This document shows, piece after piece, positions 1,160 to 38,077 of a DNA stretch of 43,910 nt. The notes below the pieces were generated by a model. That model saw only the letters and a program-made list of their open reading frames with translations, had not been told where the DNA came from and ran no database searches. Location of the stretch: contig JAMLGI010000016.1 of NCBI GenBank assembly GCA_023958085.1, positions 1-43,910 of the forward strand. Reading direction: 5' to 3'. How positions within the stretch are numbered: position 1 is the stretch's first letter; each line of letters starts with the position of its first letter. A program made the position numbers and the translations under genes. The stretch comes from Solirubrobacterales bacterium. GTDB lineage: Bacteria > Actinomycetota > Thermoleophilia > Solirubrobacterales > 70-9.

Positions 1160-1648
1160 TTACCCTTCTGGCGTCAAGACGATCATCAGGCCCCCGTCGT
1201 CGTCATAGGCGGGGAAGACATCGGCGATCGCCTGGGCGGCGGATTCCTTCTCGGAGCGCACTTCTACGCGCTTTCCGAGCGAGCGGACGCCCCATTCGAG
1301 CGAGGTCTCGATCGGGTCAGTCTCGCCGTCACCGTTGGTGTCGGCTTCGGGGCCGCCGTCTCCGGCATCGATCCATTCGAGGCCGAGCACGTCGCGAACC
1401 GGACGGCCGATCACGTCCTCGTCGGTGAGGCCGGTGAGTTCGAAGCTGCCGCGGCCCGCATCGATGACCCGGCCTTCCTGGTCACAGACGAAGAACGCCG
1501 CGTTGGGGGCCGGGTAATAGTCGTCCAGCAATTCGAACACGAAACCGAAACCGCACTTCGAGCAGCCCTTCGGACGCGGGCTGAACCCGGCGGTCCGGTC
1601 ACCGCTGGTCTCCCGGTTTCCACAGTTGGGGCAGATGAAGAACGGCAT
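1160..1648 (-). CDS. Zinc-ribbon plus PAS-domain protein
   Basis: The 162-residue protein starts with a zinc-ribbon-like CPNC at residues 6-9 and CSKC at 29-32. A PAS-like region of about 110 residues follows (core about 45-150, with FFVCD, GRVIDA, FELTGL and a GRPVRDVLG loop). It contains an acidic Asp-rich insert, near 96-112. No kinase, cyclase or DNA-binding domain follows, so it may be a stand-alone sensor or protein-interaction module; its ligand is unknown. The start chosen is the ATG at 1648, because a TACCCT hexamer ends 7 nt before it; an open frame further upstream is only antisense to the epimerase gene. It is the first gene before secD, where yajC often sits. Function is not assigned beyond the domains. 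Confidence 0.75.
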   Translation of the reverse strand: MPFFICPNCGNRETSGDRTAGFSPRPKGCSKCGFGFVFELLDDYYPAPNAAFFVCDQEGRVIDAGRGSFELTGLTDEDVIGRPVRDVLGLEWIDAGDGGPEADTNGDGETDPIETSLEWGVRSLGKRVEVRSEKESAAQAIADVFPAYDDDGGLMIVLTPEG

Positions 1649-1655
1649 CCCGGGA

Positions 1656-1661
1656 AGGGTA
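1656..1661 (-). promoter_or_regulatory. -10 element TACCCT, leaderless promoter of the zinc-ribbon/PAS gene
   Basis: TACCCT ends 7 nt before the ATG at 1648, so transcription should begin at or next to the start codon. No Shine-Dalgarno can fit. No -35 match is seen. It is divergent from the promoter at 1676-1681. Confidence 0.6.
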
Positions 1662-1675
1662 TTGAATCGGTGCCC

Positions 1676-1681
1676 TAGGCT
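1676..1681 (+). promoter_or_regulatory. -10 element TAGGCT, leaderless promoter of the epimerase gene
   Basis: TAGGCT ends 6 nt before the ATG at 1688. The two divergent start codons are only 39 bp apart, and both -10 elements lie inside that gap. Confidence 0.6.
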
Positions 1682-1687
1682 GCGGTC

Positions 1688-2599
1688 ATGAAGATCTTCG
1701 TCGCCGGAGCAAGCGGAGCCATCGGGCTCCCCCTGGTTCGCCAGCTCGTCGCTGCCGGCCATCAGGTGACCGGGTCGACCCGGGGCGGCGGCGGCGCCGG
1801 CAGGATCAGAGAGGCTGGCGGGGTCGCCGTGGCCTGTGACGTCTTCAACCGCGGCCAGTTGACCGAGGCCGTGAAACAGGCGGGGCCGGACATCGTCGTC
1901 AACCAGCTGACCAGCCTGCCGCCGAAGTTCGAGCCGAAGAAGAAAGGGTTCTACGACGCCAACAACCGGATCCGCTCCGAGGGCGGCGACAACGTGATCG
2001 CGGCCACCGCGGCGGCCGGAGCCGGACGGCTGGTCACCCAGAGCATCTCCTTCCTCTACGAACTCGAGGGTCCGATGATCAAGACCGAAGATGAGGCGGT
2101 CGACAGAAGCGGCACCCACGACGCCGTACTCGGGCATGAACAGAAAGCGCTCGAAGACGGTCGCTTCGAAACGGTTGTGCTGCGCTACGGATTGCTCTAC
2201 GGGCCGGGGACCTGGTACGCGGCGGACGGCCACATAAGCGAGGAAGTCCGCAAGCGGCGCCTTCCGGTTGTGGGCGACGGTGGCGGGTACTCCTCGTTCC
2301 TTCACGTAGAGGACGCCGCCTCCGCTGGGGTCGTGGCCCTCGACCGGGGAGAAGGCATCTACAACGTGACCGATGACGAGCCAGCTCCGCTGGCCGAGTG
2401 GCTCCCGGTGCTCGCGGAAGCGCTCGAAGCCAAACCGCCGCGGCGGGTCCCGGCCTGGCTCGCGTCACTGGTTGCGGGCCGGGCTATCGTCCGACAGGCC
2501 ACGGACGGGCGCGGCGCCTCGAACGCGAAGTTCAAGGCAGAGACCGGCTGGCAGCCCTCGATACCGAGCTGGCGCCAGGGGTTCTTCGAGGCGCTCTAG
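1688..2599 (+). CDS. NAD(P)-dependent epimerase/dehydratase (extended/atypical SDR)
   Basis: A 303-residue Rossmann-fold protein. The N-terminus [13 protein letters not shown] carries the GxxGxxG dinucleotide-binding motif at about residues 7-13. The middle has QSISFLYE and [13 protein letters not shown], and then [10 protein letters not shown], typical of the NAD-dependent epimerase family. The classical YxxxK pair is not obvious, which fits the atypical, NmrA/WcaG-like branch. Substrate is unknown. It stands alone on the plus strand inside a minus-strand region. Its TAG stop overlaps the ruvB stop on the other strand (sequence CTAG), so the two genes converge with no spacer. Confidence is high for the fold, low for any specific reaction. 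Confidence 0.85.
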
Positions 2600-3687
2600 A
2601 ACAGGGACTGGTGCCCCGACGGCACCGGAAGGCCGAGGTGCTCGAAAGCCGAGGGCGTGAGGACCCGTCCGCGCGGGGTCCGCTTCAGCATCCCCATCTG
2701 GAGCAGATAGGGCTCGAGCACGTCCTCGATCGTGTCCTGTTCCTCCCCGATCGCCACGGCAATCGTTGAAAGGCCGACCGGTCCGCCACCGAACCGGGTT
2801 GCGATCAGATCCAGCAGGGCGCGGTCGGCCCGGTCGAGACCGGCCTTGTCCACCTCCAGCATCTCCAGCGCCGCATCGGCCATGTCGGCGTCGACCGACC
2901 CCGAGCCCTTCACCTCGGCGAAGTCCCGCACTCTCTTCAACAGCCGGTTCGCCACCCGCGGCGTTCCGCGGGAACGCTCGGCGATCGCCAGCGCCCCGCC
3001 GGCGTCTATCTCCACTCCGAGGATGCCGGCCGATCGCTTGACGATCGTCGACAGATCCTCCGGCGAGTAGTACTCGAGCCGGTGCGAGACGCCGAAGCGG
3101 TCGCGCAACGGCGTCGTGAGCAGGCCGCTGCGGGTGGTCGCGCCGATCAGCGTGAACGGTGGCAGCGGCAGGGTCACGGTCTGGGCCCCCGCCCCCTGGC
3201 CGAGGACCACCGGCAACTCGCCGTCTTCCATCGCCGGATAGAGCGTTTCTTCCACGGCCCGGCCGAGACGGTGGATCTCGTCGATGAAGAAGACGCTGCC
3301 GGGCTCCAGCGAGGTCAGGAAGGCGGCCACGTCACCCTTTCGTTCCAGCGCTGGACCGGCCGTCTGGACCAGGGGCACCCCCATCTCGGCAGCGACGATG
3401 TTGGCGAGGGATGTCTTGCCGAGACCGGGCGGTCCGGCCAGCAGGACGTGATCCAGCGGCTCTCCACGACGCCGGGCAGCCTCGATGAACACGGCGAGCT
3501 GATCGGTCACCTGTTTCTGGTTGACGAAATCTTCCAGGCCGCGGGGCCTCAGCGACCGATCCAGTTCCCGGTCCGGAGGGTCGGCGTCGGCGTCATGGAC
3601 CCGTACCGATCCCCCCGCTTGAGAATCGGCGGAACCGAGATCAATCCGACGACCAGAGATTTCCGGCAGGTCGTCCACTTCAGCCAT
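2596..3687 (-). CDS. ruvB: Holliday junction branch-migration ATPase RuvB
   Basis: RuvB forms hexameric rings that drive branch migration of Holliday junctions together with RuvA. The 363-residue protein has Walker A GPPGLGKT at residues 85-92, Walker B DEIH at 136-139, a GATTRSG sensor region, and an RDRFG arginine-finger region, followed by the C-terminal winged helix. An N-terminal stretch of about 40 residues before RPRGLEDF is longer than in many RuvB proteins and rich in Asp. Its ATG overlaps the end of ruvA by 8 bp, so the genes are coupled. Identity is certain. Confidence 0.97.
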
Positions 3688-4282
3688 CCCGCATCGTGCC
3701 GGCCCGCTTCAGGGCGGCACTGATCAGAACCTGGGGATCATCGGCGCCCACTCCATCTTCGGTCCCGACAGCATCGAGCAGCTGCTCGGCTTCGAGCGGC
3801 TGGTATCCGAGCCCGACCAGACCGTCACGGGCCAGACTCCGGGCATCCACCCCGGTCGCGGGAGGCTCCGTCCCCGGCAAGGTCTCCACCCGGTCCTTGA
3901 GTTCGAGGATGATCCGGTCGGCGGTCCGCTTGCCGATCCCCGGTACCGCCTGGAAGCGTTTGGCATCACCATTGACGATCGCCCGTACCAGTTCGCGATG
4001 CGGGCCACCGGAAAGCGCCGCGATCGCCACTTTCGGGCCGATTCCGCTGACCCCGGTCAACTGGCCGAAGAGGTCACGCTCCTCCTCGCTGGAAAAGCCG
4101 TAGAGCTGGATGCTGTCCTCGCGACTGACCGTCACCGCATGCAGGAAGCAGTCCTGGCCTGCGGCCGGCACTGCTCGCAGGGTTTCCGAACTGACCGTCA
4201 ACCGGTAGCCCACCCCGGCCGCCTCGATCACCACATGATCGGATCGACGTACCAGCACCTCCCCACGGACCGTGGCGATCAA
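3680..4282 (-). CDS. ruvA: Holliday junction DNA-binding protein RuvA
   Basis: RuvA binds the four-way junction and loads RuvB. The protein is 200 residues, the usual family length: an OB-fold N-terminus (LIATVRGEV), two helix-hairpin-helix motifs ([12 protein letters not shown] and [12 protein letters not shown]) and the flexible C-terminal domain that contacts RuvB. The start is TTG at 4282: it overlaps the ruvC stop as TTGA, and the family always begins right before the I-x-x-V-R-G sequence. A longer open frame upstream is only a shadow of ruvC. It is part of a tight ruvC-ruvA-ruvB operon. Confidence 0.95.
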
Positions 4283-4868: not shown

Positions 4869-5618
4869 TCAGCCGGCCAGCTTCTCCAGCACCGCTTCGG
4901 GGATGTCGAAGTTCGCGTGAACCTCGTCCACATCGTCCTGGTCCTCGATCGCTTCGAGCATCCGGATCAGGGTCCCGGCGTCCGCCTCGTCGATCTCGAC
5001 CGTGTTCTTCGGGACCACTTCGAGCTTCGTCTCACGGGTCTCGATCCCGTCCGCCTCGATCGCTTCACGGACCGCGGTCAGGTCCCCCGGGTCAGCCAGG
5101 ACCTTGAGCTGATCGTCTTCGACCCGGACGTCGCTTGCCCCGGCGTCGATTGCGCCGATCAGGTCGTCCTCGCTGTACCGCCCGCCGTCGACCGTGATCA
5201 CTCCGTGCGTCTCGAAGATCCAGGCGACCGAGCCGGGCTCCCCGAGGCTGCCCCCGTTGCTCGAGAAGGCGTGGCGCACCTCGGCCGAGGTGCGGTTCCG
5301 GTTGTCGGTCAGGGCATTGACCAGGATCGCCACCCCGCCAGGGCCGTAGCCCTCGAACTGAATCCGCTCCACCGCGACCCCGTCGGCGCCCTCACCGGTG
5401 CCCCGGTCGATCGCCCGCTCGATGTTTGCCTTCGGCATCGATTCGGCTCTGGCCTTCTGGATCGCGGTCGCCAACGCGGGATTGCCGTCCGGATCACCGC
5501 CGCCCTCGCCCGCGGCTACGGTGATCGCCCGCGCCAGCTTGGTGAACAGCTTGCCCCGCTTTGCGTCGGCGGCGCCCTTCTTGTGCTTGATCGAGGACCA
5601 CTTCGAGTGACCGGACAT
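4869..5618 (-). CDS. YebC/PmpR-family protein
   Basis: A 249-residue YebC-family protein. The N-terminus MSGHSKWSSIKHKKG and the internal KANIERAIDRGTGE are family signatures. YebC proteins were long called transcriptional regulators; recent work links members to relief of ribosome stalling, so both names are in use. The start is the ATG at 5618: the family begins exactly there, and TACAAT ends 7 nt upstream. An in-frame extension further upstream is therefore rejected. It lies before ruvC, as in most actinobacteria. Confidence 0.93.
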   Translation of the reverse strand: MSGHSKWSSIKHKKGAADAKRGKLFTKLARAITVAAGEGGGDPDGNPALATAIQKARAESMPKANIERAIDRGTGEGADGVAVERIQFEGYGPGGVAILVNALTDNRNRTSAEVRHAFSSNGGSLGEPGSVAWIFETHGVITVDGGRYSEDDLIGAIDAGASDVRVEDDQLKVLADPGDLTAVREAIEADGIETRETKLEVVPKNTVEIDEADAGTLIRMLEAIEDQDDVDEVHANFDIPEAVLEKLAG

Positions 5619-5625: not shown

Positions 5626-5631
5626 ATTGTA
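5626..5631 (-). promoter_or_regulatory. -10 element TACAAT, leaderless promoter of yebC
   Basis: TACAAT differs from TATAAT at one base and ends 7 nt before the yebC ATG. The start codon of the divergent membrane-protein gene is only 21 bp from that of yebC, so there is no room for a normal leader on this side. Confidence 0.65.
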
Positions 5632-6096: not shown

Positions 6097-6711
6097 TCAG
6101 GGAAGTCCGGCCGGTTCACGGGCGACGCAGAGTTCCGCGAACCATCGGTGAATCCGCGAATCCGTGGTCAGCTCCGGGTGGAAGGACAGGGCAACCACCC
6201 GACCCTCACGGACCGCGACCGGGTGGCCCCGCACCTCCGCCAGGACCTCGACCGCCGGGCCTGCCTCTTCAACCCAGGGAGCCCGGATGAAGACGGCCCG
6301 AACCGGCCCGCCCCCGATGCCGGGAAGGTCGAGGTCCTGCTCGAACGACGCGAGCTGGCGGCCGAACGCGTTCCGCCTGGTCGTGATGTCGATCAGCCGG
6401 AGATGTTCGCGTCCGGCCACGATCATCCCGGCGCAGGTCCCGAGAATCGGCAGACCGGCCGCGTGATGGTCTCTGACCTTCCCCTCGAGACCGTCCCTGG
6501 CGAGACCCTTGAGGATCGTGGTGCTCTCCCCGCCGGGGAGGATCAGACCATCGAGCCGATCGAAATCCGGGGCGTTCCTGACTTCGACCGGCCGGGCTCC
6601 GACCTGCCGGAGATGATCCAGGTGGGCAGCGAAACCACCCTGGATCGCAAGGACGCCGATCCGGGGGCCGTCGGACCGACCGCTACCAGCCGCGGCCGGC
6701 CAGCCTTCCAT
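6097..6711 (-). CDS. pdxT: Pyridoxal 5'-phosphate synthase glutaminase subunit PdxT
   Basis: PdxT splits glutamine and channels ammonia to PdxS in DXP-independent vitamin B6 synthesis. The 204-residue protein shows a class I glutaminase: LPGGEST at 58-64, nucleophile C93 in GTCAGM, and the catalytic H178 and E180 in SFHPE. The start is not certain: the ATG at 6711 overlaps the end of pdxS by 29 bp and adds about 16 residues before the conserved [11 protein letters not shown]; no better canonical start is visible between them. It follows pdxS in the usual pair. Confidence 0.93.
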
Positions 6712-7567
6712 CTTCCCCGAGCGACGAGATCTCGATCCCGGGCATCGCATCGCCCAGATTCTCGGAGGCTGCGGCGATCCGATCCGGATCGTTGAAGTGG
6801 GTGGTCGCCTCGACGATCGCCCGGGCCCGGACTTCCGGGTCTTCACTCTTGAAGATGCCGGAACCGACGAAGTTTCCTTCTGCGCCGAGCTGCATCATCA
6901 GGGCCGCATCGGCCGGGGTTGCAATTCCCCCGGCGCAGAACATCGGCACCGGAAGCCAGCCGGTGTTTGCGACCTCACGGACCAGGCTGATCGGGGCTCG
7001 CAACTCCTTCGCCGCGGCCGGAAGTTCGGCCGGGGTGATCCCGGCCAGCCGCCTGATGCCGCCCACGATGTCGCGCATGTGGCGAACCGCCTCGACCACG
7101 TTGCCGGTGCCCGCCTCTCCCTTGGATCGGATCATCGCCGCGCCTTCGCCGATCCGCCTGAGGGCCTCACCGAGATTGGTGGCACCACAGACGAACGGCG
7201 CGTCGAACTCGAACTTGTCGACGTGATTGACCTCGTCGGCCGGGGTGAGTACTTCCGACTCGTCGATGAAATCGATCGAGAGTGATTGCAGGACCTGTGC
7301 CTCGACGAAGTGGCCGATCCGGACCTTCGCCATCACCGGGATCGAAACGGCATCCTGAATCTGCTTGATCATCTTCGGGTTCGACATGCGGGCAACGCCG
7401 CCGTCCCTGCGGATGTCGGCAGGCACCCGCTCCAGCGCCATTACCGCGCAGGCTCCTGCTTCCTCGGCGATTCTCGCCTGTTCGGCATCAACCACATCCA
7501 TGATCACGCCGCCCTTGAGCATCTCTGCCAGGCCCGTCTTGACTCGGAAAGTCGCTTCTTCAGCCAT
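6683..7567 (-). CDS. pdxS: Pyridoxal 5'-phosphate synthase lyase subunit PdxS
   Basis: PdxS builds PLP from ribose 5-phosphate, glyceraldehyde 3-phosphate and ammonia from PdxT. The 294-residue TIM barrel keeps the key residues: D24 (IMDVVD), K81 (VMAKVRIGH), which forms the first Schiff base, and K149 (RSKGEAGTG). The ATG at 7567 is supported by homology and by TATATT ending 7 nt before it. Forms an operon with pdxT. Presence of pdxST implies that dxs in this window serves isoprenoid rather than B6 synthesis. Confidence 0.97.
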
Positions 7568-7574: not shown

Positions 7575-7580
7575 AATATA
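7575..7580 (-). promoter_or_regulatory. -10 element TATATT, leaderless promoter of pdxS
   Basis: TATATT ends 7 nt before the ATG at 7567. The same hexamer at the same distance is found at the M42 peptidase gene (38072-38077). Confidence 0.65.
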
Positions 7581-8846: not shown

Positions 8847-9497
8847 TCAGTTCCTGACGGTGCGGCGGCGCCGAAGCAGCAGCGCGCCGCCACCCACTGC
8901 CAGCACCGCCAGCATCAGGAAAGGCAGAACCGGCACCTCATCGTCACGCCCCTGCCAGTAGAGGGTCCCGTTGATCTGCGCCGGTTCGCCTCCGACCCGG
9001 AGCGGGATGGTGTAGGGAAAGATCTCGGTCCTCTCCGATTCATCCTTCACCTGGGGTGGCACTCCGTTACCCATGTAGTGGGAGCGATGGTCATGCCACT
9101 CGAATCGTCCGTCGGTATCAACCTGCTTCCAGTCCGGCTTCGCATCCTTGTCGGCCCGGGCCGGTATTTTCACGTTCGCGAACCGATCTTCGTTCTTGTA
9201 GTGGGTAGGTGAGTTCAGGTTCACCTCAACCGTCCCGTCGGCCAGGATCCGGGCGTACGGTTCACCGTCATAGCCGAGGATCTCGACCTCCCTGCCGGAG
9301 CGGTTCTCAAGCACTACGTGATCGTCGAAGTTCACGACCTGAGCCGTCAGGCCGTCAGCCAGCCGGGCGGGAGTGATCGAACTTATTACCGAACGGTAGT
9401 CCGAATTGCCCTGATGCGCGTGGGCCGTCGCTGTCACCGTGCCCACGATGGCGAGGGCCAGCAAGAGAAGGCCCGCGACTGACTTGAGGAACGCCAC
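8847..9497 (-). CDS. Secreted, membrane-anchored protein with His-rich motif
   Basis: A 216-residue protein with a Sec signal peptide (hydrophobic about 8-24, likely cleavage AHA|HQG near residue 27), an extracytoplasmic beta-rich domain, and one C-terminal membrane helix (about 190-208) followed by RRRR, so the domain faces outward. The motif WHDHRSHYMG and the His just after the predicted cleavage site recall extracytoplasmic metal-handling proteins, but I cannot name a family. Start is GTG at 9497, with TAGACT ending 7 nt before it. Confidence 0.72.
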   Translation of the reverse strand: MAFLKSVAGLLLLALAIVGTVTATAHAHQGNSDYRSVISSITPARLADGLTAQVVNFDDHVVLENRSGREVEILGYDGEPYARILADGTVEVNLNSPTHYKNEDRFANVKIPARADKDAKPDWKQVDTDGRFEWHDHRSHYMGNGVPPQVKDESERTEIFPYTIPLRVGGEPAQINGTLYWQGRDDEVPVLPFLMLAVLAVGGGALLLRRRRTVRN

Positions 9498-9504: not shown

Positions 9505-9510
9505 AGTCTA
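9505..9510 (-). promoter_or_regulatory. -10 element TAGACT, leaderless promoter of the secreted protein gene
   Basis: TAGACT ends 7 nt before the GTG start at 9497. The same hexamer at the same spacing precedes dnaG (15712-15717). Confidence 0.6.
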
Positions 9511-15711: not shown

Positions 15712-15717
15712 AGTCTA
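15712..15717 (-). promoter_or_regulatory. -10 element TAGACT, leaderless promoter of dnaG
   Basis: TAGACT ends 7 nt before the CTG codon at 15704. An ATG nearer to the hexamer (3 nt away) is in the wrong frame for DnaG. Confidence 0.6.
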
Positions 15718-24936: not shown

Positions 24937-25842
24937 TCAGCCCTTCCCTTCGGCGCGATCCGGACCGGTGCTGGAGCCGGGAACGGGGGCCAGCAACTCC
25001 GGAACCAACGCCCCGGCATCCGGCCCTACTCCAAAACTTCCTACCGCTCCGTTCAGGGAGTAGATCAGGCTGACCTTTCCCGAGGGCATATCGACGTTGT
25101 CGACCGTGGTCAGGTTGTTGTCGTGGAAGAATCCGATCCCGGAGGGTTCGGTGCCCAGGGTTTCGACCCCGACCACCCGGATTCCGGTGCCGGCCGCTCC
25201 CGAGACGACTGCCCGGTCGAGCTGGTCGCTGAGTCCCGCCCCGTCCCCGGAACCGGCCTCCTTCTCGTCCCGGTAGAAGACAAGTCCGTCAAGTCGGCCG
25301 AACTGGCCGCTCGACTGGGAGAACATCACTCCGTCGGTCAACTCCAGCACCCGACCTCCGGTGACCAGCTGGCGACCGAACGTCTCACCGAAACGGGTCA
25401 CCAGACGCGGGCGGGCCCCCAGCCCGGCCAGCCGGGTGCCTCCGAGTGCGTCGGCCAGCTCACCGGTTTCGGGCGGCTGGCGGAGCGCGCCCACCGCGAC
25501 CAGTCTGCCCCCGGTCGGTTCGATCGCCTCCTCCACCGACTCGGTCACCTCTGACGGCAGCTCGCCAAACCCGACCAGCCCGATCCGTCGTCCGGCCAGC
25601 CGGGAGTCAACCAGCAGCGGATAAACCGTGCGCCCGAAACTGTTCGACCAGCCCTCCCGGCGTTCGAGTTCGCTGACCTCGGTCCGGGACGCGTCCAGAT
25701 CCTTGGTCAGACTCTTCTCCAGGTCCTTCCGGGTGCTGTTCAGGAGCTCGCCGCCGTACTGCGAGCCGAGCAGAATCCCGATGGCCAGAGCGAAGAAGAC
25801 GGCCGCCAGCGAAGCAGCGTGATAGCGAGCGCTGTATCCCAT
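24937..25842 (-). CDS. MctB/SteB-like membrane-anchored protein
   Basis: A 301-residue protein with one N-terminal membrane helix (about 10-28, AVFFALAIGILLGSQYG), a coiled-coil stretch (LEKSLTKDLDASRTEVSELERR), and an extracytoplasmic domain. It matches the mycobacterial Rv1698 (MctB, a copper transport protein) and corynebacterial SteB type, found directly after SteA and before pyrG in many actinobacteria. SteB is reported to work with SteA in cell separation; whether copper export or cell division is its role here cannot be told. TAGTCT at 25852-25857 ends 9 nt before the ATG, overlapping the steA stop. Confidence 0.82.
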   Translation of the reverse strand: MGYSARYHAASLAAVFFALAIGILLGSQYGGELLNSTRKDLEKSLTKDLDASRTEVSELERREGWSNSFGRTVYPLLVDSRLAGRRIGLVGFGELPSEVTESVEEAIEPTGGRLVAVGALRQPPETGELADALGGTRLAGLGARPRLVTRFGETFGRQLVTGGRVLELTDGVMFSQSSGQFGRLDGLVFYRDEKEAGSGDGAGLSDQLDRAVVSGAAGTGIRVVGVETLGTEPSGIGFFHDNNLTTVDNVDMPSGKVSLIYSLNGAVGSFGVGPDAGALVPELLAPVPGSSTGPDRAEGKG

Positions 25843-25851: not shown

Positions 25852-25857
25852 AGACTA
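25852..25857 (-). promoter_or_regulatory. Possible internal -10 element TAGTCT before mctB/steB
   Basis: TAGTCT ends 9 nt before the ATG at 25842 and contains the TAG stop of steA. The spacing is 2 nt longer than the clear leaderless cases, so this is a weak call. Confidence 0.3.
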
Positions 25858-27039
25858 AAGCCCCAGCCAGATCTTGATCTTCAGCCACAGCATGTCGTAC
25901 AGGTTGGCCAGGGCCGGCGAGGTCAGGACCACGATCACCACCAGGACCAGGAAGGCCCCGAGGAACAGCATCAGTGGCCCTGCGGTCAGCCCGGGGTTGT
26001 AGAGCCGGCTCACCCCGCGGGCATCAACCAGGATCTCGCCGATCCTCAGGCGAGTCAGAAAGGTCGAGGACATCCCGGCCCGGTCCTTGTCCAGAAACTC
26101 GGTCAGATTGAAGTGGGCACCGACCGTGACGATCAGCGAGGCACCCTTTTCGAAGGCCATCAGCATCGCCACGTCCTGACTGGTTCCGACCGAGGGCAGC
26201 ACGGTGTGTTCGACCTCGAGATCGACCAGCCGCTCCCGCCCCGGGGCCCGTCCGTCGGCGTAGGCGTGGACGATCACCTCGGTTCCGGAGCGCAGGATCT
26301 CGTCCGAGGCCGAGTCCATGTCTCCGAGGATCATGTCCGGCCGGTAGCCGGCGTCACGGATCGCGTCGGCGGCGCCGTCGACCCCGACGATGATCGGTCT
26401 GGTGTCACGTATGTAGGCCCTGAGTGCCCGCAGGTCACGCTTGTAGTTCGGCCCCCGTACCACGATCAGAACCGGCCGGTCACGGAAATCAACCCGGGTG
26501 TCCGGGAGTTCGATCGAGCCCGAGAGCAGTTCGGACTCCTCCCGAATACGGGAGACCGTGTTCTCGGCGAAGTCGGCCAGCGCGTGATGAATCTCGGCCT
26601 GCTGCTCCTCGAGCTGGCGCAACAGCCCGGGCTTCAGCTGCTCGATCCCGCAGGCGACGACGTCGCCGCCGCGCAGCAGGTCCGGTCCGTCGAGTTCGAT
26701 CCGATCACCGTCGTGAAGCAGGGAGAAAAGCTCCTGCTCGGGGAAGTCGATCAGCCTGACCCCGCCCTCGACCAGGATCAGCGGACCCTGATTCGGGTAG
26801 TGGCCGTCCGACGATGACTGATCGTTGAGCACCACCTTCACCCCGGTTGCGACCAGATCCTCGGCCGCAACCCGATCGAGGTTGCGGTGACCGATCACCG
26901 CCACGTCGCCCGGCTTCAGGGTCTTGACCAGATCCTTGGTCCGCCGTCCGGTGCGCACGATGCCGCTGCTGACCGGGTTCGGGGAGGACCGTTGTCCGTT
27001 TCCGGTCGACCGCCAGAGCTTTTCGCGGATCATCGCCAC
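25855..27039 (-). CDS. steA: SteA-like protein (thiamin pyrophosphokinase-like domain, cell separation)
   Basis: A 394-residue protein with a cytoplasmic N-terminal region (DVAVIGHRNLDRVAAEDLV), a thiamin-pyrophosphokinase-like core (GVDGAADAIRDAGYRPDMILGDMDSAS) and a C-terminal membrane helix (LMLFLGAFLVLVVIVVL). This is the Rv1697/SteA arrangement; corynebacterial SteA is a cytokinetic-ring protein acting with SteB. Start is GTG at 27039, because TACCCT ends 6 nt before it; the preceding GTG at 27042 gives one more residue. It lies between recN and mctB/steB, the conserved order. Enzyme activity of the TPK-like fold is not expected. Confidence 0.85.
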   Translation of the reverse strand: MAMIREKLWRSTGNGQRSSPNPVSSGIVRTGRRTKDLVKTLKPGDVAVIGHRNLDRVAAEDLVATGVKVVLNDQSSSDGHYPNQGPLILVEGGVRLIDFPEQELFSLLHDGDRIELDGPDLLRGGDVVACGIEQLKPGLLRQLEEQQAEIHHALADFAENTVSRIREESELLSGSIELPDTRVDFRDRPVLIVVRGPNYKRDLRALRAYIRDTRPIIVGVDGAADAIRDAGYRPDMILGDMDSASDEILRSGTEVIVHAYADGRAPGRERLVDLEVEHTVLPSVGTSQDVAMLMAFEKGASLIVTVGAHFNLTEFLDKDRAGMSSTFLTRLRIGEILVDARGVSRLYNPGLTAGPLMLFLGAFLVLVVIVVLTSPALANLYDMLWLKIKIWLGL

Positions 27040-27045: not shown

Positions 27046-27051
27046 AGGGTA
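27046..27051 (-). promoter_or_regulatory. -10 element TACCCT, leaderless promoter of steA
   Basis: TACCCT ends 6 nt before GTG 27039, within the 54-bp gap between the recN stop and steA. It implies that steA and downstream genes can be transcribed independently of recN. Confidence 0.55.
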
Positions 27052-28885: not shown

Positions 28886-29698
28886 TCAGACGGCGAGGTG
28901 CCCGAACTTCTCGCGGATTCGGTGGTAGAAGTTCGAACCCGGCAGCTGGGCCAGACGGGCGGCGTCCGGACGGTAGCTCACTTCCGCTTCGGCGCCCGGC
29001 TCCAGCCTGCCGATCCCGATCCCGTCCGCCTCGCAGTCGACCACGTCGCGGCTACGGTGGTTGACCACGTGGAGAACGTCGTCGGGTGCCACCACCAGCG
29101 CCCTGGCGGTGAGGGTGTGGGGCGCGATGTAGCTCACCACGTAGCCGGAGACTCCCCAGGCGAGGATCGGTCCGTGATTGGCGAGGTTGTATCCGGTGGA
29201 TCCGACCGGGGTCGAGGCAACCAGGCCATCGCAGCGCACGTGGCCGACCTCCTCGCCGGCAATCCGGTAGCTCAGTTCGGCCACCCCGGTCTGGGGATGA
29301 CGACTGAAACTCACGTCGTTGATCGCAGTCGTCTTGACTCCGTCGATCACGACCTCGAGTCCCGGTATCTCCAGCAGTTCGTAGTCCCCTGCGAAGGCCC
29401 GGTCGAGCCCGAGTTCGAGCTGATCGGCCTCGACTCCGGAGAGGAAGCCGACCCGTCCGTAGTTGATTCCGAACACCGGAATCCCGGTTCCGACGGTGTC
29501 ACGGAGCGCGCTCAGGATGCTGCCGTCACCGCCGAGCACCAGGCAGAGGCCGGGCTGCTCGCCGGCGTCCGCCCCCGGCCCACCCGCCGGCCGCAGATCC
29601 CAGCCGTGCCGGTTTGCCGCTGCCTCGGCGACCACTTTCGCCCGGTCGATTCCTTCGGCGTGTTCATGGGTGTAGAGCAGGGCGATCGGGCGGCTCAT
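28886..29698 (-). CDS. nadK: NAD kinase
   Basis: Makes NADP from NAD with ATP or polyphosphate. The 270-residue protein carries GGDGS at 56-60, NYGRVGFL, the NDVSF motif, and CDGLVASTPVGSTGYNLAN. Its ATG overlaps the tlyA stop (ATATGA), so it is coupled to tlyA as in mycobacteria. The C-terminus IREKFGHLAV is typical. Confidence 0.96.
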   Translation of the reverse strand: MSRPIALLYTHEHAEGIDRAKVVAEAAANRHGWDLRPAGGPGADAGEQPGLCLVLGGDGSILSALRDTVGTGIPVFGINYGRVGFLSGVEADQLELGLDRAFAGDYELLEIPGLEVVIDGVKTTAINDVSFSRHPQTGVAELSYRIAGEEVGHVRCDGLVASTPVGSTGYNLANHGPILAWGVSGYVVSYIAPHTLTARALVVAPDDVLHVVNHRSRDVVDCEADGIGIGRLEPGAEAEVSYRPDAARLAQLPGSNFYHRIREKFGHLAV

Positions 29699-30486
29699 AT
29701 GGCTACACCTTCGCAGAGCGCGGCCCCGTCGGGGGCACCAGGCCCGGGGTGACCGAGGCGGATGAAGGTCTCCAGATTCCCTTTCGGCCCGGGCAGCCCG
29801 GTCGGGGCGATCCCGTTCAGTCCGAACCCCAGACCCCGGGCGAAGTCGGCAACTTCGGAGACCGCCTCGCGCCGGTCGGTCTCGCTCCGCACCACCCCGC
29901 CACGGCCAACCCGGGCCCGGCCGAGCTCAAACTGAGGCTTGACCATGGCGAGGATCTCGCCGTCCGGGTGGATCATCCCCCGGACCGGGCCCAGCACCTT
30001 GGTCAGCGAAATGAAGGAGACATCGATCACGGTCAGGTCCGGTTCGTACTCGAGATCACCGGGCTTCAGGTCACGGGCGTTCAGGCGCTCGATCACGGTG
30101 ACCTGCGGGTGCCGCCGTAGCGAATCCTCGATCTGTCCGTAGGCAACGTCCAGGGCAATCACGTGAGCCGCCCCGTGCTCGAGCAGGCAGTCCGTGAATC
30201 CGCCGGTCGAGGCACCAACGTCGAGACAGCGCCTCGCCTTGACCGGGACCTCCAGCGCCTTCAACGCGTTTTCCAGCTTGATCCCGCCGCGGGAGACGAA
30301 TCGACGGGCCTCGGCCAGTTCGACCTCCTGATCGGCCATTACCTCCTGGCTCGGCCTGAGGGCCACCGGCCCATCGCGACCGAGCTTGACCTGGCCGGCC
30401 CGAACGGCTCTCGCGGCAACGGTCCGGGACGGAAACAGATTCCTTTCGGTCAAGAGCACGTCCAGCCGGATTCGCTTTCTGGGCAT
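29695..30486 (-). CDS. tlyA: TlyA-family rRNA 2'-O-methyltransferase / hemolysin A homologue
   Basis: In mycobacteria TlyA methylates 16S and 23S rRNA at cytidine 2'-O positions, which affects capreomycin sensitivity. The 263-residue protein has an N-terminal S4 RNA-binding domain (IRLDVLLTERNLFPSRTVAA) and a FtsJ-like SAM domain with DVGASTGGFTDCLL at about 85-98, and VTVIDVSFISL. Start is ATG at 30486: TACCTT ends 6 nt before it, and the S4 domain begins five residues later. A longer frame to 30516 adds 10 residues through the promoter and is rejected. Its neighbours nadK and recN agree. Confidence 0.93.
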   Translation of the reverse strand: MPRKRIRLDVLLTERNLFPSRTVAARAVRAGQVKLGRDGPVALRPSQEVMADQEVELAEARRFVSRGGIKLENALKALEVPVKARRCLDVGASTGGFTDCLLEHGAAHVIALDVAYGQIEDSLRRHPQVTVIERLNARDLKPGDLEYEPDLTVIDVSFISLTKVLGPVRGMIHPDGEILAMVKPQFELGRARVGRGGVVRSETDRREAVSEVADFARGLGFGLNGIAPTGLPGPKGNLETFIRLGHPGPGAPDGAALCEGVAI

Positions 30487-30492: not shown

Positions 30493-30498
30493 AAGGTA
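30493..30498 (-). promoter_or_regulatory. -10 element TACCTT, leaderless promoter of tlyA
   Basis: TACCTT ends 6 nt before the ATG at 30486. An inverted repeat at 30509-30530 lies in the position of the -35 and could be an operator. Confidence 0.55.
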
Positions 30499-30530: not shown

Positions 30531-30531
30531 A

Positions 30532-30574: not shown

Positions 30575-30597
30575 CGAGTTCAAAGGAGGTGCTCAAA

Positions 30598-30948
30598 GTG
30601 CCCAATCGACCGATCAAGATCGACTTTCACAACGCTCTCGTCCTCGCGATCGCCCCGCTGATGATGATCGTTCCCTACGTCCTGACCTTCGACCCCAAAC
30701 TCGGCCTGCTCAGCTTCTTCCTGGGTGCAGCCGCAATGGGAATCGCGCTCAGCGGCATCCGGCCGCAGACCCTGCCCGGATCGACGATTGCGGGCTTCGA
30801 CCGCATTCTCGGCCTGACCACGGTGCTGGTCGGCCTCGTTTCCGGCCTCACCGGCCAGCCCGTGGTTACCACCATCTTCCTGGTCGGGTTCGGCGCCGCT
30901 CATCTCGCCCTGACCGCGGCAACGCGGTACGGCTCTCGCGGCGCATGA
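30598..30948 (+). CDS. Small four-helix membrane protein under a CRP-like site
   Basis: A 116-residue protein with four hydrophobic segments (about 12-30, 35-54, 69-86, 89-108), and a short polar N-terminus. No family is recognised; it resembles in layout SPW-repeat-like membrane proteins. Start is GTG at 30598, set by the strong AAAGGAGGT sequence 7 nt upstream, which is the best ribosome binding site seen in the window. The gene stands alone, with its own terminator (31009-31048). The combination of activator site, strong translation signal and terminator suggests a regulated, highly expressed single gene, perhaps linked to stress or carbon state. That role is inference. Confidence 0.75.
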   Translation: MPNRPIKIDFHNALVLAIAPLMMIVPYVLTFDPKLGLLSFFLGAAAMGIALSGIRPQTLPGSTIAGFDRILGLTTVLVGLVSGLTGQPVVTTIFLVGFGAAHLALTAATRYGSRGA

Positions 30949-31103: not shown

Positions 31104-31109
31104 TAGTCT
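31104..31109 (+). promoter_or_regulatory. -10 element TAGTCT, leaderless promoter of the recQ-like gene
   Basis: TAGTCT ends 6 nt before GTG 31116. The GTG at 31113 is only 3 nt from the hexamer and is too close. Confidence 0.55.
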
Positions 31110-31115: not shown

Positions 31116-33245
31116 GTGTCCGACTCCTCCACCCCATCCGTCCCCCTTCCGTTCGGCCTGCGGGCGGAGTGGTTGATCGAACGGCTGGAACTGGAGGCCC
31201 GATCCGGCGTGAGGGACCCCGGGCTGGATGCCGATCTGACCGAGCTTCGCGAGAGCTGGCGCCTTCTCACCGAACCGGAGCGTGAGCATTCCGCCGCCGT
31301 GGTCGAACGGATGGGCGCCCTGACCCGGTCCCGTCCGCCCGCCGGGTCGCCGGAGTCCGACTCGATCGGGATCGGGGGCACCGTCCGGGCATCCGGACCG
31401 GGAGCAGCCATCCCCCCGCCCCGTGACGAACAGGCCGAGGCTACGATCGCCCTCCAGGGACTCGAGGGACTGGAGCTCACCGACGCGCCACCCTCCCGGA
31501 GCTACCACGGCCCGCCGGATCCGGACTCGCTGCTCGCCCACATGGGTTACGACTCCTTCCGGCCCGGCCAGAGGCAGGCGGTCGAGGCGGCGCTGGCGGG
31601 CCGTGACAGCCTGGTGGTGATGCCGACCGGAGGCGGCAAGAGCCTCTGCTACCAGCTCCCTGGCCTCGCCGGCGAAAATCTGACCCTGGTGGTCTCGCCA
31701 CTGATCGCGCTGATGTCCGACCAGGTGCGGCGACTGCGCTCCGACGGTCATCCGGCTGTCATGTTCGCTTCCGGCCTCTCCCCGGAGGAGAGCGAGGCCT
31801 CCCGAAGCGCGGTGGCCGACGGATCGGCCCGAATCGCCTACTGCTCACCGGAACGGTTCGGTTCTGCCGCCTTTCTCGAGCTGATCTCCAGCCGTGAGAT
31901 CGCTCTGCTGGCGATCGATGAGGCTCACTGTCTGTCGGAGTGGGGTCACGATTTCCGGCCCGACTACCTGCGGCTGCCCAAGGTTGCCGAACGACTGGGG
32001 CGGCCACCGGTGATGGCTTCGACCGCGACCGCCACGCCCGAGGTGGCAACCGAGATCGCCTCCCGGATGGGGATGCGCGATCCGGTCGAGGTCCATTCCG
32101 GCTTCGACCGCCCCAATCTCAGCTTCGACACGATTGCCCTGGAAGGCAAGGGCTCAAAGGCGAAAAAGGCCGCTCTGCTTGAACTCGGCCTGTCCGATCC
32201 GGCAAACCGGCCGGCGATCGTCTACTGCGGTACCCGTCGGGACACCGAAGAACTGGCCGACGCCCTCGCCGCAAACAACCTCCAGGCTGTGGCGTACCAC
32301 GCCGGGATGGCCCCCGATGAACGGGCCTCGGCCCAGATCCGGTTCATGGAGGGTGACGTCGACGTGGTGGTCGCCACCAATGCCTTTGGCATGGGAATCG
32401 ACAAGGCTGACGTGCGATCGGTCTGGCACTGGGCGATCCCCTCCAGCGTCGAGGCCTACTACCAGGAGGCCGGCCGGGCCGGCCGCGACGGCGCCCCGGC
32501 GCGGGCAGTCCTCCTGGCCATGCGGGCCGATCTTGGCCGCCTGATCCGATTCATCGAGCAGAAGAGGGTTGACCCGGACGACGTCCTCGCCTTCATCGAG
32601 CGACTTCGGGAAGCCTGCGGCGAGGAGGGGTCAACCGAGGTCGAGGCCCCACGAGGCGACTCCGATCGGATCCGGTTGGCGGTGGCCGAGCGGGCCGGGG
32701 CCCTGGCCGTGGATCCGGCCCCCGGCGGCCGACTTCGGGTCGAACCTCTGGATCGGGTTGCGCCGGGCGCGATCCGGTCCGCCTGTCGGGTCCCCGAGGA
32801 CCGCGGCTGGCGGGCCTACCGGGCGGTCGAGGCCTTCGCCTTCTCGGACACCTGTCGGCGGCGACAGCTACTCGACCATTTCGGTGACGGCTCACCCACC
32901 CGACCGACCGGCCGCTGCTGCGACGTCTGTGATCCAGACAGTTTCCTGCCGGATCCCGACAGCCTGGTGATCGGCCGTCCACGAGCCAATCCGAAAGCGA
33001 AATCCAGTCCACCTCCGGAACTCGCCGCAGAGAACGAGGAGCTGTTCGAGGCGCTCAGGGCGTGGCGCCTCGAGGCGGCCGGGGACCGGCCCGCGTTCCA
33101 TGTCGCCTCCAACCGCACCCTGGTCGCCATCGCCACCGCCCGCCCGGCCGACCAGGATGAGCTGCTGGCGATCCGCGGGGTCGGACCCGCCTTCATGGAC
33201 AACTACGGGGCCGCAGTTCTGCGGCTGGTTTCAGCCCATTCCTGA
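31116..33245 (+). CDS. recQ: RecQ-family ATP-dependent DNA helicase
   Basis: A 3'-5' DNA helicase for recombination and repair. Of 709 residues, the first about 130 are a family-atypical N-terminal extension, helical then Pro/Ser/Gly-rich. The helicase core follows: FRPGQRQAV, MPTGGGKSLCYQLP (Walker A), IDEAHCLSEWGHDFRPDY (DEAH and aromatic loop), STATATP, FDRPNL, YCGTR, and YQEAGRAGRDG (motif VI). A zinc-binding CRRRQLLDHFG and CCDVCDP follow. A C-terminal HRDC-like end has LLAIRGVGPAFMDNYG. The start at GTG 31116 follows the -10 spacing rule. dxs converges 34 bp downstream. Confidence 0.92.
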   Translation: MSDSSTPSVPLPFGLRAEWLIERLELEARSGVRDPGLDADLTELRESWRLLTEPEREHSAAVVERMGALTRSRPPAGSPESDSIGIGGTVRASGPGAAIPPPRDEQAEATIALQGLEGLELTDAPPSRSYHGPPDPDSLLAHMGYDSFRPGQRQAVEAALAGRDSLVVMPTGGGKSLCYQLPGLAGENLTLVVSPLIALMSDQVRRLRSDGHPAVMFASGLSPEESEASRSAVADGSARIAYCSPERFGSAAFLELISSREIALLAIDEAHCLSEWGHDFRPDYLRLPKVAERLGRPPVMASTATATPEVATEIASRMGMRDPVEVHSGFDRPNLSFDTIALEGKGSKAKKAALLELGLSDPANRPAIVYCGTRRDTEELADALAANNLQAVAYHAGMAPDERASAQIRFMEGDVDVVVATNAFGMGIDKADVRSVWHWAIPSSVEAYYQEAGRAGRDGAPARAVLLAMRADLGRLIRFIEQKRVDPDDVLAFIERLREACGEEGSTEVEAPRGDSDRIRLAVAERAGALAVDPAPGGRLRVEPLDRVAPGAIRSACRVPEDRGWRAYRAVEAFAFSDTCRRRQLLDHFGDGSPTRPTGRCCDVCDPDSFLPDPDSLVIGRPRANPKAKSSPPPELAAENEELFEALRAWRLEAAGDRPAFHVASNRTLVAIATARPADQDELLAIRGVGPAFMDNYGAAVLRLVSAHS

Positions 33246-36176: not shown

Positions 36177-36184
36177 GATCGGAC

Positions 36185-36379
36185 TCAGTCCCGGTTCAAC
36201 TGTTCGGCCGCGTCAGCCGCCTTCTTCGAGGCTTCCTCGATCAGGGCAGCCGCTTCGGCGGCGAGCTCGGCGGCTTCGCCGTCTCCGGTCTGCCCGTCAC
36301 GCAGCAGCGCGGTGATCTGCTCCAGCCTCAGCCGGATCCGGTCAAACCGGTTGGCGACGCTGTCCGGCCCGTCACTCAC
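36185..36379 (-). CDS. xseB: Exodeoxyribonuclease VII small subunit (XseB-like)
   Basis: A 64-residue helical protein from GTG at 36379. RFDRIRLRLEQITALLRDG is followed by a second Ala/Glu-rich helix, giving the helix-turn-helix layout of XseB, although residues are not close to the model family. The call leans on gene order nusB-xseB-ispA-dxs. The start overlaps the nusB stop by 8 bp. No xseA is in the window, so the large subunit must be elsewhere or the gene has another role. Only moderate confidence. Confidence 0.6.
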   Translation of the reverse strand: MSDGPDSVANRFDRIRLRLEQITALLRDGQTGDGEAAELAAEAAALIEEASKKAADAAEQLNRD

Positions 36380-36848
36380 CGCTCGCCGCCCTGCTTCGTT
36401 CCAGTTCGGCCGCTTCCCGTTCCTCGGCCGCTTCGCGCTCGATCTGCGCCGTTCTGGCTGCGATCGCGTCGGCGTCAGCGCCCATCGCCCGGGCCACCGA
36501 ACCGAGGATGCCATTCACAAAACCGGGCGCATCGGCCCCGCAGAACCGCTTGGCGCACTCGACCGCTTCGTCGATCGCCACCTCGAACGGCACGTCGTCC
36601 CGGAAGTTCATCTCGAACAGGGCGACCCGCATGATGTTCTTTTCAAGTGGCGCGATCCGGTTCAGCGTCCAGCCCCGGGCGTATTCGGAGATCACTTCGT
36701 CCAGTTCCGCCCGATGCTCCTCGACCCCCAGAGCCAGCTCCCTGGTGAAGGTCCCGGAGTCGGCCAGCAGGACGTCGAGCGACCGGTCGGTGACTTCCTG
36801 CTGGTAGCAGGCAAAGACGGCATCACGCCGCTGGGAGGAACGTCGCAT
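36372..36848 (-). CDS. nusB: Transcription antitermination factor NusB
   Basis: NusB works with NusE (S10) in rRNA antitermination. The 158-residue protein has the usual N-terminus RRSSQRRDAVFACYQQEV, IAPLEKNIMRVALFEM, PFEVAIDEAVECAKRFCG and FVNGILGSVAR. A 20-residue Glu/Ala/Arg-rich tail follows. Start ATG at 36848, with TATCCT ending 7 nt before it (an overlapping TAATAT is 3 nt further away). It opens the nusB-xseB-ispA-dxs operon. Confidence 0.94.
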   Translation of the reverse strand: MRRSSQRRDAVFACYQQEVTDRSLDVLLADSGTFTRELALGVEEHRAELDEVISEYARGWTLNRIAPLEKNIMRVALFEMNFRDDVPFEVAIDEAVECAKRFCGADAPGFVNGILGSVARAMGADADAIAARTAQIEREAAEEREAAELERSRAASGE

Positions 36849-36855
36849 CGAGGGA

Positions 36856-36861
36856 AGGATA
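36856..36861 (-). promoter_or_regulatory. -10 element TATCCT, leaderless promoter of nusB
   Basis: TATCCT ends 7 nt before the ATG at 36848. TAATAT at 36859-36864 overlaps it and would give a 3-nt leader instead. Confidence 0.55.
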
Positions 36862-36882
36862 TTAGCCCGGCAAAACCCCGGC

Positions 36883-36926
36883 GGTGGGGCCCTCAGGTGT
36901 CTATATGGACACCTGCGGGCCCCACC
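36883..36926. repeat. Bipartite hairpin B1
   Basis: Outer stem GGTGGGGCCC/GGGCCCCACC (10 bp), a 2x2 internal loop, and an inner stem AGGTGTC/GACACCT (7 bp) with loop TATATG. Confidence 0.85.
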
Positions 36927-36942
36927 CGCAGATTCCTCTCAC

Positions 36943-36986
36943 GGTGGGGCCGATCAGTATCACCACGGATACCTGTGGGCCCCACC
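36943..36986. repeat. Bipartite hairpin B2
   Basis: Outer stem GGTGGGGCC/GGCCCCACC (9 bp) identical to B1, then an unpaired region, and a different inner stem GTATC/GATAC with loop ACCACG. Repeat spacing B1 to B2 is 60 bp. Both lie between the M42 peptidase stop and the nusB promoter. Confidence 0.82.
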
Positions 36987-37011
36987 CTCAGATGGAGGGG
37001 GGCTCTCTGTT

Positions 37012-38064
37012 TCAGCGGCTGAGGTCCACCCCGGGCTCGAGGCGCTCGACGAAGGCGACGATCAGCCTCACCGTGTTCTCGACGTCCTCGAGATCCACCA
37101 TCTCGACCGGCGAGTGCATGTAGCGCAGCGGGATCGAGACCAGACCCGCCGGGATCCCGTTGCGGGAGATCTGAAGCGAGTCAGCATCGGTGTGGGTGGC
37201 GTTGCCGCTGGCCCCGATCGAGTACGGGATCTCCTCGGCTTCAGCGGTTTCACGCAGGAGCTCATAGACCTTCGGCGAGAGGGTCGAACCGCGACCGATC
37301 ACCGGGCCGGAACCGAACGGATGGGAGCCAACCTCCTTCTCTTCAACGCCGGGCGCATCGGTGGCGTGGGTCACGTCCACCGCCACCGCCAGATCGGGCC
37401 GGACCGTGAACGCGGCGGTGCGGGACCCGAACAGCCCGATCTCCTCCTGGACCGCGGCCACCGCGGCAAACCGGCCCTTCAACCGGGCGTTCTCGTGGCA
37501 TCGCCGCAGCGCCTCCAAGGCAACGTAGGAGCCGAGCCGGTTGTCCATCGAACGGGAGACCAGCCGGCTCCCGGCGACCGGCAGCGGTTCGCAATCGATG
37601 ACCACCGGGTCCCCGACCGAAACCAGCTTCCCGGCGTCGTCTCGATCTTTCGCCCCGATGTCGAGGTGCATCTCCTTCAGCTTCACCACCTTCTTGCGCT
37701 GCTCCGGTTCCAGCAGATGGATCGGCTTGCGCCCGGCCACTCCCGGGACCGGCCCGTCGTTGCCGGTGACGGTGACCCGCTGACCAACCAGGATCTGGGG
37801 GTCCCACCCGCCGATCGGTTCGAAGTAGAGGAAGCCGTTCTCATCGATATGGGTAACCACCAGACCGATCTCGTCGATGTGTCCGACCACCGCAACCAGT
37901 GGACCCGTCCCTTCGTCCCCGATCGTGGCCACGCTGGAACCGAGCCCGTCGGTGGTGATCCCGGCGAAATCGGCCGCCGTCCGCCAGACCGAGGCAGCGG
38001 GTGCCTCGTAACCGGAGGGAGCGGGTGTGCGAAGCATCTGATCCAGCAAAGGAGGAGTGACCAT
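37012..38064 (-). CDS. M42-family metallopeptidase (glutamyl/deblocking aminopeptidase-like)
   Basis: A 350-residue di-zinc aminopeptidase of the tetrahedral (TET) type. Visible are GHIDEIGLVV (first metal ligand and catalytic Asp), RSMDNRLGSYVALEAL (bridging Asp), VAAVQEEIGLFGSR (catalytic Glu and ligand), AVDVTHATDAPG, and RYMHSPVEMVDLEDVENTVRL (last ligand His). Start is ATG at 38064, since TATATT ends 7 nt before it; the longer frame to 38073 would put the -10 inside the gene. No peptide partner is adjacent. Likely cytoplasmic. Confidence 0.9.
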   Translation of the reverse strand: MVTPPLLDQMLRTPAPSGYEAPAASVWRTAADFAGITTDGLGSSVATIGDEGTGPLVAVVGHIDEIGLVVTHIDENGFLYFEPIGGWDPQILVGQRVTVTGNDGPVPGVAGRKPIHLLEPEQRKKVVKLKEMHLDIGAKDRDDAGKLVSVGDPVVIDCEPLPVAGSRLVSRSMDNRLGSYVALEALRRCHENARLKGRFAAVAAVQEEIGLFGSRTAAFTVRPDLAVAVDVTHATDAPGVEEKEVGSHPFGSGPVIGRGSTLSPKVYELLRETAEAEEIPYSIGASGNATHTDADSLQISRNGIPAGLVSIPLRYMHSPVEMVDLEDVENTVRLIVAFVERLEPGVDLSR

Positions 38065-38071
38065 GAACCCC

Positions 38072-38077
38072 AATATA
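38072..38077 (-). promoter_or_regulatory. -10 element TATATT, leaderless promoter of the M42 peptidase gene
   Basis: TATATT ends 7 nt before the ATG at 38064, the same hexamer and spacing as pdxS. Confidence 0.65.

Follow-up and report, generated by a model that had tools for sequence, protein, structure and literature searches.

Genes transcribed without a leader are already known in actinobacteria, and the habit itself is not unusual. In an in silico study, Zheng 2011 (PMC3160421) described TA-led leaderless genes, with TAnnnT about 10 bp before the start, at a level of about 20% in Actinobacteria and in 86 of 89 genomes. In Mycobacterium tuberculosis, Cortes et al. 2013 (PMC3898074) measured 26% of the genes with a primary start site to be leaderless. 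TANNNT was centred 7–12 bp before the start site without a conserved -35, and the purine start commonly followed C. In M. tuberculosis, that study found no leaderless ribosomal protein, initiation factor or elongation factor. Shell et al. 2015 (PMC4633059) reported that leaderless translation needs a 5'-terminal ATG or GTG, CTG being a poor initiator in that position. According to its title and the opening of its abstract, PMC12340547 describes the same arrangement, with the -10 region adjacent to ORFs, in a different phylum, Deinococcus-Thermus. Among open-licence PMC papers, no description of a leaderless mode was found for Solirubrobacterales.

The stretch studied here (the window) comprises positions 1 to 43,910 of the forward strand of contig JAMLGI010000016.1, from a Solirubrobacterales bacterium MAG (GCA_023958085.1). 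The initial annotation had placed TANNNT hexamers 6 or 7 nt before the starts of eleven genes. Scanning for TANNNT-N6/7-[AGT]TG on both strands and direct inspection located all of them; ten of the starts are ATG or GTG. The eleventh, that of dnaG, was missed by the scan because the codon at this spacing is CTG. The boxes, and one example of a leadered start, are as follows.

1656..1661, minus strand: -10-like TACCCT, 7 nt before ATG 1648 of a PAS-like gene (1160-1648)
1676..1681, plus strand: -10-like TAGGCT, 6 nt before ATG 1688 of an epimerase gene (1688-2599)
5626..5631, minus strand: -10-like TACAAT, 7 nt before ATG 5618 of yebC (4869-5618)
7575..7580, minus strand: -10-like TATATT, 7 nt before ATG 7567 of pdxS (6683-7567)
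9505..9510, minus strand: -10-like TAGACT, 7 nt before GTG 9497 of a putative secreted protein gene (8847-9497)
15712..15717, minus strand: -10-like TAGACT, 7 nt before CTG 15704, the likely start of dnaG (13914-15704)
25852..25857, minus strand: -10-like TAGTCT, 9 nt before ATG 25842 of an unnamed gene (24937-25842)
27046..27051, minus strand: -10-like TACCCT, 6 nt before GTG 27039 of steA (25855-27039)
30493..30498, minus strand: -10-like TACCTT, 6 nt before ATG 30486 of tlyA (29695-30486)
30583..30589, plus strand: Shine-Dalgarno-like AAGGAGG, read directly, 8 nt before GTG 30598 of a small gene in the leadered mode
31104..31109, plus strand: -10-like TAGTCT, 6 nt before GTG 31116 of a recQ-like gene (31116-33245)
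36856..36861, minus strand: -10-like TATCCT, 7 nt before ATG 36848 of nusB (36372-36848)
38072..38077, minus strand: -10-like TATATT, 7 nt before ATG 38064 of an M42 peptidase gene (37012-38064)
38156..38161, plus strand: -10-like TAGTCT, 9 nt before ATG 38171 of the EF-P gene (38171-38731)

The PAS and epimerase promoters are divergent, with 39 bp separating the two start codons. The boxes of EF-P and of the unnamed gene, both at spacer 9, were absent from the initial list and lie outside its 6–7 nt rule; the TAG of the latter box is the stop codon of steA. One further scan match, at a 54-aa ORF at 21628 on the minus strand, was doubtful. A Pfam search with the putative secreted protein gave no match.

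TANNNT is a loose pattern, and starts could have been picked to fit it. The rule requires CTG for dnaG, and for steA and the recQ-like gene it requires the second of two consecutive GTG codons (GTGGTG), the first of which lies at spacer 3. The orthologues, on the other hand, backed the second GTG as the start of both genes. Within the window, 10 ATG or GTG codons that open at least 100 codons had TANNNT at spacer 6–7; 24 control spacer pairs (spacers 12–59), applied to the same class of codons, gave a mean of 0.92 and a maximum of 4.

The count was extended to a genome sample of 800 kb plus the window (681 genes, about one-third of the genome), with starts called by our own gene caller, blind to the motif. 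TANNNT stood at 6–7 nt in 89 of the 681 genes versus about 4.3 expected, an excess of 20-fold, and the enrichment over other distances that the initial annotation had called for was thus observed directly in this third of the genome. Spacers 6, 7, 8, 9 and 10 held 55, 34, 19, 21 and 7 genes, respectively, against a background mean of 2.17 per position at spacers 40–99 nt.

Altered hexamers were counted at the same 6–7 nt. Fourteen of the 18 gave 2–19 matches versus 3.1–17.5 expected, some reaching twice the expectation, and GA...T gave 29 versus 18.1. Three were raised: TA..T. (18 versus 3.6), T..A.T (27 versus 7.0) and TAT..T (12 versus 1.0). The genes concerned also held TANNNT at 5–10 nt in 18/18, 22/27 and 12/12 cases, respectively. 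The altered hexamers therefore either stayed close to background or exceeded it only where the gene holds TANNNT as well, which supported the enrichment of TANNNT itself. Chance matching with selected starts was rejected by the spacer controls, the altered hexamers, the motif-blind starts and the orthologues, and we consider it extremely improbable.

An EM model run on divergent genes from a TANNNT seed kept the motif (T.75 A.90 N N N T.94) at spacers 6–9, and shifted control windows lost it. Its mixture fraction of 0.38 was dropped as a firm estimate; the control windows converged to 0.33–0.62 on unrelated motifs.

The 89 box genes at spacer 6–7 started with ATG (61) or GTG (28) and never with TTG, which opened 31 of 392 other genes (p 0.003). 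These 392 genes, from which closely packed downstream genes were excluded, served as the comparison set for the base and codon tests. The restriction was also seen directly when in-frame codons were counted: TANNNT stood at 6–7 nt before 92 of 641 ATG, 40 of 723 GTG and 137 of 29,139 of all others. The base at -1 was a pyrimidine in 66 of the 89 box genes versus 156 of the 392 others (p 4e-9). This fits a pyrimidine-purine transcription start step on the start codon.

Leaderless or near-leaderless transcription, in the ordinary actinobacterial mode, is very probably the best explanation of these observations. The promoters would be of the main (sigma-70-type) kind, with TANNNT as the -10 element and without a clear -35. 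With this element fixed 6–9 nt before the start codon, RNA polymerase would begin at the A or G of ATG or GTG, or at most about 3 nt from it. The resulting mRNA would have no leader or one of a few nt, lacking a Shine-Dalgarno site, and the ribosome would initiate on the 5'-terminal RTG. The assignment to a sigma factor, the exact position of the 5' ends and the initiation of translation there are predictions made from sequence.

It is possible, with a probability clearly below even, that the boxes are true -10 elements but that many transcripts carry leaders of 1–5 nt and are not strictly leaderless. The genes at spacers 8, 9 and 10 point in this direction, and the 21 at spacer 9 imply short leaders rather than strict leaderlessness. 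At spacer 8, 15 of 19 genes had a purine at -1 and 15 of 19 had a pyrimidine at -2, as if transcription began one base earlier, with the qualification that a purine at -1 is common elsewhere too (236/392). The yebC orthologues, whose spacers drift between 6 and 9, are also in line with it. On the other hand, the distribution peaks at 6–7, where both the pyrimidine at -1 and the limitation to RTG are consistent with transcription beginning on the start codon itself.

A Shine-Dalgarno site was present in 1 of the 89 box genes versus 126 of all 681. This absence was dropped as independent support, for decoy hexamers at the same place exclude the site equally (2/80). It also bears on whether some boxes are just one of several promoters, with most of the transcript arriving from upstream with a normal leader. 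Close same-strand genes upstream of nusB, dnaG and steA suggest such an arrangement, dnaG lying about 50 nt after dgt. The near-lack of Shine-Dalgarno sites for a longer transcript to use argues against it, although box position alone may explain that lack. Overall, we regard this arrangement as unlikely.

The conservation of the box was likewise observed directly. The box was kept by relatives for nine of ten genes tested, for dnaG and recQ within the genus. The counts below take in the window's own locus (except for pdxS), and the related genomes are not independent. Control positions gave 0 or 1 for every gene, dnaG included. TANNNT stood at 6–9 nt in 20/20 PAS loci, one of which (G010) is identical to our own, and at 16–19 nt in 0/20. 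At 6–8 nt, the box was found in 21/30 yebC loci (control 0/30) and in 28 of 39 pdxS loci (of 80 fetched; control 1/39). It was also present in steA (25/30, control 1/30), tlyA (23/30, control 1/30) and nusB (17/30, control 0/30). The recQ gene, testable almost only within the genus, had it in 8 of 9 usable loci (of 30), all 8 from the same genus (control 0/9). For M42, the strict motif was found in 3 of 29 usable loci and, allowing CATAAT and similar, in 15/29 (strict control at 16–18, 0/29); most relatives have CATAAT in place of TANNNT.

The EF-P orthologues had the box at 6–8 nt in 23/30 family loci and at 6–10 nt in 27/30 (control 0/30). EF-P thus looks, from sequence, leaderless or nearly so, which is a new detail and differs from the lack of leaderless elongation factors in the M. 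tuberculosis report (PMC3898074).

Of 15 same-genus dnaG loci, 12 had the box at 6–8 nt; these 12 include the 4 of the 15 that start with CTG. In loci from other genera the box was found in 0/15. In other genera of the family, dnaG showed apparent stop-start coupling to the upstream gene. The codon restriction found here is that of Shell et al. (PMC4633059), and the dnaG CTG, also a new detail, is the exception; CTG is poor at the leaderless position in Mycobacterium smegmatis. The idea that CTG serves generally as a leaderless start was not supported: only 3 in-frame CTG near the 681 called starts were boxed, and CTG fell outside the 22 codons of highest rate. The dnaG start itself lay outside the range of this assay because the caller had put it 150 nt downstream. 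We tentatively suggest, at somewhat less than even probability, that dnaG is leaderless in this genus and that Solirubrobacterales ribosomes can initiate on CUG at the 5' terminus, perhaps to keep primase output low. This start allows the strictness of the ATG/GTG rule to be tested directly beyond mycobacteria.

Across the genome sample, TANNNT at 6–10 nt was found in 135 of 681 genes (about 11 expected by chance), the same hexamer and about 20% share as in the TA-led genes of Zheng 2011 (PMC3160421). When the starts were allowed to vary, the box stood at 6–10 nt in 87 of 230 divergent genes, compared with 5 and 13 for two ranges of control spacers. The box mode was therefore present in about one-fifth of all genes and about one-third of divergent genes, the others having leadered or operon-internal Shine-Dalgarno starts. 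The initial annotation had taken leaderless promoters to be the main type for operon-leading genes, which a share of about one-third of the divergent genes does not support. What stands of its interpretation is a -10-like box at fixed spacing, such that transcription would begin on the start codon or no more than a few nt away from it. Its view that two initiation modes coexist was borne out, boxed starts occurring alongside Shine-Dalgarno-led internal genes.

These results extend the actinobacterial leaderless mode, on strong comparative evidence, to Solirubrobacterales, and the box may be used for correcting start codons in such MAGs. A phylum-wide count of the pattern versus its reversal (149 genomes) was too crude for ranking lineages, especially genomes rich in both, and reversal is not a control for spacing.

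Where it overlaps the PAS gene, the plus-strand ORF 461-1678 from our own caller is probably spurious; the PAS gene itself is present in 45 of 50 family genomes. Positions 1 to about 3300 of the window, within which the PAS and epimerase boxes fall, were nearly identical to the MAG of another species (G010). This near-identity probably reflects a chimeric join rather than recombination.

The initial annotation placed a -10-like TANNNT hexamer (the box), followed by a 6- or 7-nt spacer, before the start codons of eleven genes, and read this as a sign of leaderless mRNA, which starts on the start codon. The box, the spacer and an ATG or GTG were found at 10 of the 11 sites; in steA and the recQ-like gene the start was the second GTG of GTGGTG. 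At dnaG, TAGACT and the 7-nt spacer were present, but the codon there was CTG. In the window, 10 ATG or GTG codons opening at least 100 codons had the box at spacer 6–7, whereas 24 control spacer pairs (12–59) gave a mean of 0.92 and a maximum of 4. The stop codon of steA, TAG, forms the first half of another box, TAGTCT (25852–25857, minus strand), 9 nt before the ATG of the next gene.

The count was extended to 800 kb from three contigs, about a third of the genome, with 681 genes called by codon usage, blind to promoters and Shine-Dalgarno sites. TANNNT at 6–7 nt preceded 89 of these genes, against about 4.3 expected, and at spacer 6–10 it preceded 135. Among 18 altered hexamers, 14 gave 2–19 matches at 6–7 nt versus 3.1–17.5 expected, some up to twice the expectation, and GA...T gave 29 versus 18.1. 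Three were clearly raised: TA..T. (18 versus 3.6), T..A.T (27 versus 7.0) and TAT..T (12 versus 1.0). Genes with these three also held TANNNT at 5–10 nt in 18 of 18, 22 of 27 and 12 of 12 cases, respectively.

Box at 6–10 nt by gene class (136 matches in 135 genes)
Divergent genes: 60 of 230
Same strand, gap of at least 60: 38 of 190
Gap of 20–59: 26 of 95
Gap below 20: 12 of 166

When other in-frame ATG or GTG starts were allowed, the box was found in 87 of the 230 divergent genes, against 5 and 13 for two control spacer ranges. This indicated a large minority of leading genes; the suggestion that the box is the main promoter type of operon-leading genes was not supported.

Near gene starts, ATG (92 of 641) and GTG (40 of 723) were the only in-frame codons that stood out for the box; the other codons pooled gave 137 of 29,139. 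A pyrimidine directly preceded the start codon in 66 of 89 leaderless-type genes versus 156 of 392 others. This excess was expected if the start codon is the transcription start. Transcripts of M. tuberculosis start with a purine, most often after C, according to excerpts of Cortes 2013 (PMC3898074). Alignment of the 89 box genes on the box revealed no clear -35 element.

Shine-Dalgarno sites were found in 1 of the 89 box genes, but also in only 2 of 80 cases with decoy hexamers at the same place, so this absence is no independent proof. Two matches to the anti-Shine-Dalgarno end of 16S rRNA, as candidate 16S copies, were present in the genome. In closely packed downstream genes (n = 86, first sample), purines peaked clearly at -8 to -11. 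The two proposed initiation modes do coexist, the GTG at 30598 behind AAGGAGG being a leadered example.

The box-to-start distance was held in orthologues, and the DNA farther upstream differed by eye, most plainly for pdxS. The box was found at 6–8 nt in 28 of 39 pdxS loci (L021–L059, of 80 fetched), and in 25 (steA), 23 (tlyA), 21 (yebC) and 17 (nusB) of 30 loci each. The PAS-like gene had it at 6–9 nt in 20 of 20 loci. For recQ it was present in 8 of 9 loci, all 8 of the same genus, after 21 of 30 were dropped because the alignment started too late or the locus ended. Controls at 16–20 nt gave 0 or 1 per gene. The comparison covered these seven genes together with M42, dnaG and EF-P. Each count other than that of pdxS takes in the window's own locus, and the relatives are of shared ancestry.

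The M42 gene spoke against conservation, with a strict box in only 3 of 29 loci (one more was dropped at an edge) and a relaxed motif in 15. The TATATT of the window (38072–38077, minus strand) was an exception in the genus: of the other 13 loci from that genus, 12 had CATAAT 6–7 nt before the start. TANNNT alone therefore undercounts such promoters.

The dnaG box was found at 6–10 nt in all 15 same-genus loci sampled (12 at 6–8 by script, three read from rows); two further genomes of the genus contain the start region but yielded no locus. The start was ATG in 8, GTG in 3 and CTG in 4 (G000, which holds the window, and its relatives G007, G012 and G015). By script, no box was found in 15 loci of other genera; in about ten of them the start codon was seen by eye to overlap a stop triplet, putatively that of the upstream gene.

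No ATG, GTG or TTG stood at the conserved N-terminus of the window's dnaG (13914–15704, minus strand). In three of the CTG genomes, the interval from the CTG back to the preceding in-frame stop was free of all three codons, and in one of these, G015, that stop was inside the box itself; the fourth, G012, had one TTG 87 nt upstream. Over codons 2–16, comparison of the CTG genomes in pairs gave 14, 12 and 40 differences at the first, second and third codon positions, against 59, 53 and 62 over the 45 nt upstream of the CTG. The residues after the CTG look conserved in these genomes. Alternatively, dnaG might start at an ATG (GTG in G000) about 17 codons downstream. According to Shell 2015 (PMC4633059), CTG in the leaderless position initiates poorly in M. 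smegmatis, and PMC5622118 gives AUG-to-CUG start switches as very rare (2 of 61,358). That the CTG is a working leaderless start is a tentative reading, which we lean slightly against.

A gene for EF-P was identified at 38171 (plus strand). The box preceded it at 6–8 nt in 23 and at 6–10 nt in 27 of 30 family loci, and from its sequence EF-P (38156–38171, plus strand) looks leaderless or nearly so in those 27. This would differ from M. tuberculosis, for which the excerpts of PMC3898074 report neither initiation nor elongation factors among the leaderless genes. TAnnnT-led leaderless genes, about 20% and present in 86 of 89 Actinobacteria in the extracts of Zheng 2011 (PMC3160421), form a pattern that the present genome fits. 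Among the matches listed in the open-licence PMC literature, there was no account of leaderless genes for Thermoleophilia, Solirubrobacterales, Conexibacter or Solirubrobacter (for the last, 20 listed of 290); the leaderless literature matching Thermoleophilia concerned, in its retrieved parts, anti-Shine-Dalgarno classes, and that matching Conexibacter dealt with an M. tuberculosis toxin-antitoxin pair.

The genome measures 2.44 Mb in 31 contigs, of which the window is C16. The eleven best named matches of the window's pdxS, at 82–90% identity, were all MAGs filed under Solirubrobacterales, an order of the class Thermoleophilia. The window was compared in 200-bp pieces with a contig of another same-genus MAG (G010:C130, L321). 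Identity was 98–100% from position 1 to about 3200–3300; the next piece gave 90%, and most pieces thereafter about 80% or less. The left end of another contig of the same genome (G000:C5, 1 to about 1700, L322) showed the reverse: at the corresponding point within ruvB, identity rose from about 80% to 100%. The window is likely a chimeric assembly join of two related species, although recombination is a rival explanation. With a chimeric join, the PAS and epimerase sites (2 of the 11) would probably come from the other species. In the copy of the PAS gene carried by C5, TAGATT stood at spacer 9.

The names yebC, pdxS and epimerase were supported by Pfam matches, and those of dnaG, steA, tlyA, nusB and a RecQ-family helicase (the recQ-like gene) were likewise supported. 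The M42 gene matched an M42-type aminopeptidase, but below curated cut-offs, and the PAS match was present but weak, below the Pfam cut-off. The PAS-like protein (1160–1648, minus strand) has 162 aa, with a four-cysteine stretch at the N-terminus. It was found in 45 of 50 genomes with 69–100% identity across the family, and was more conserved than YebC (59–83% in full-length matches).
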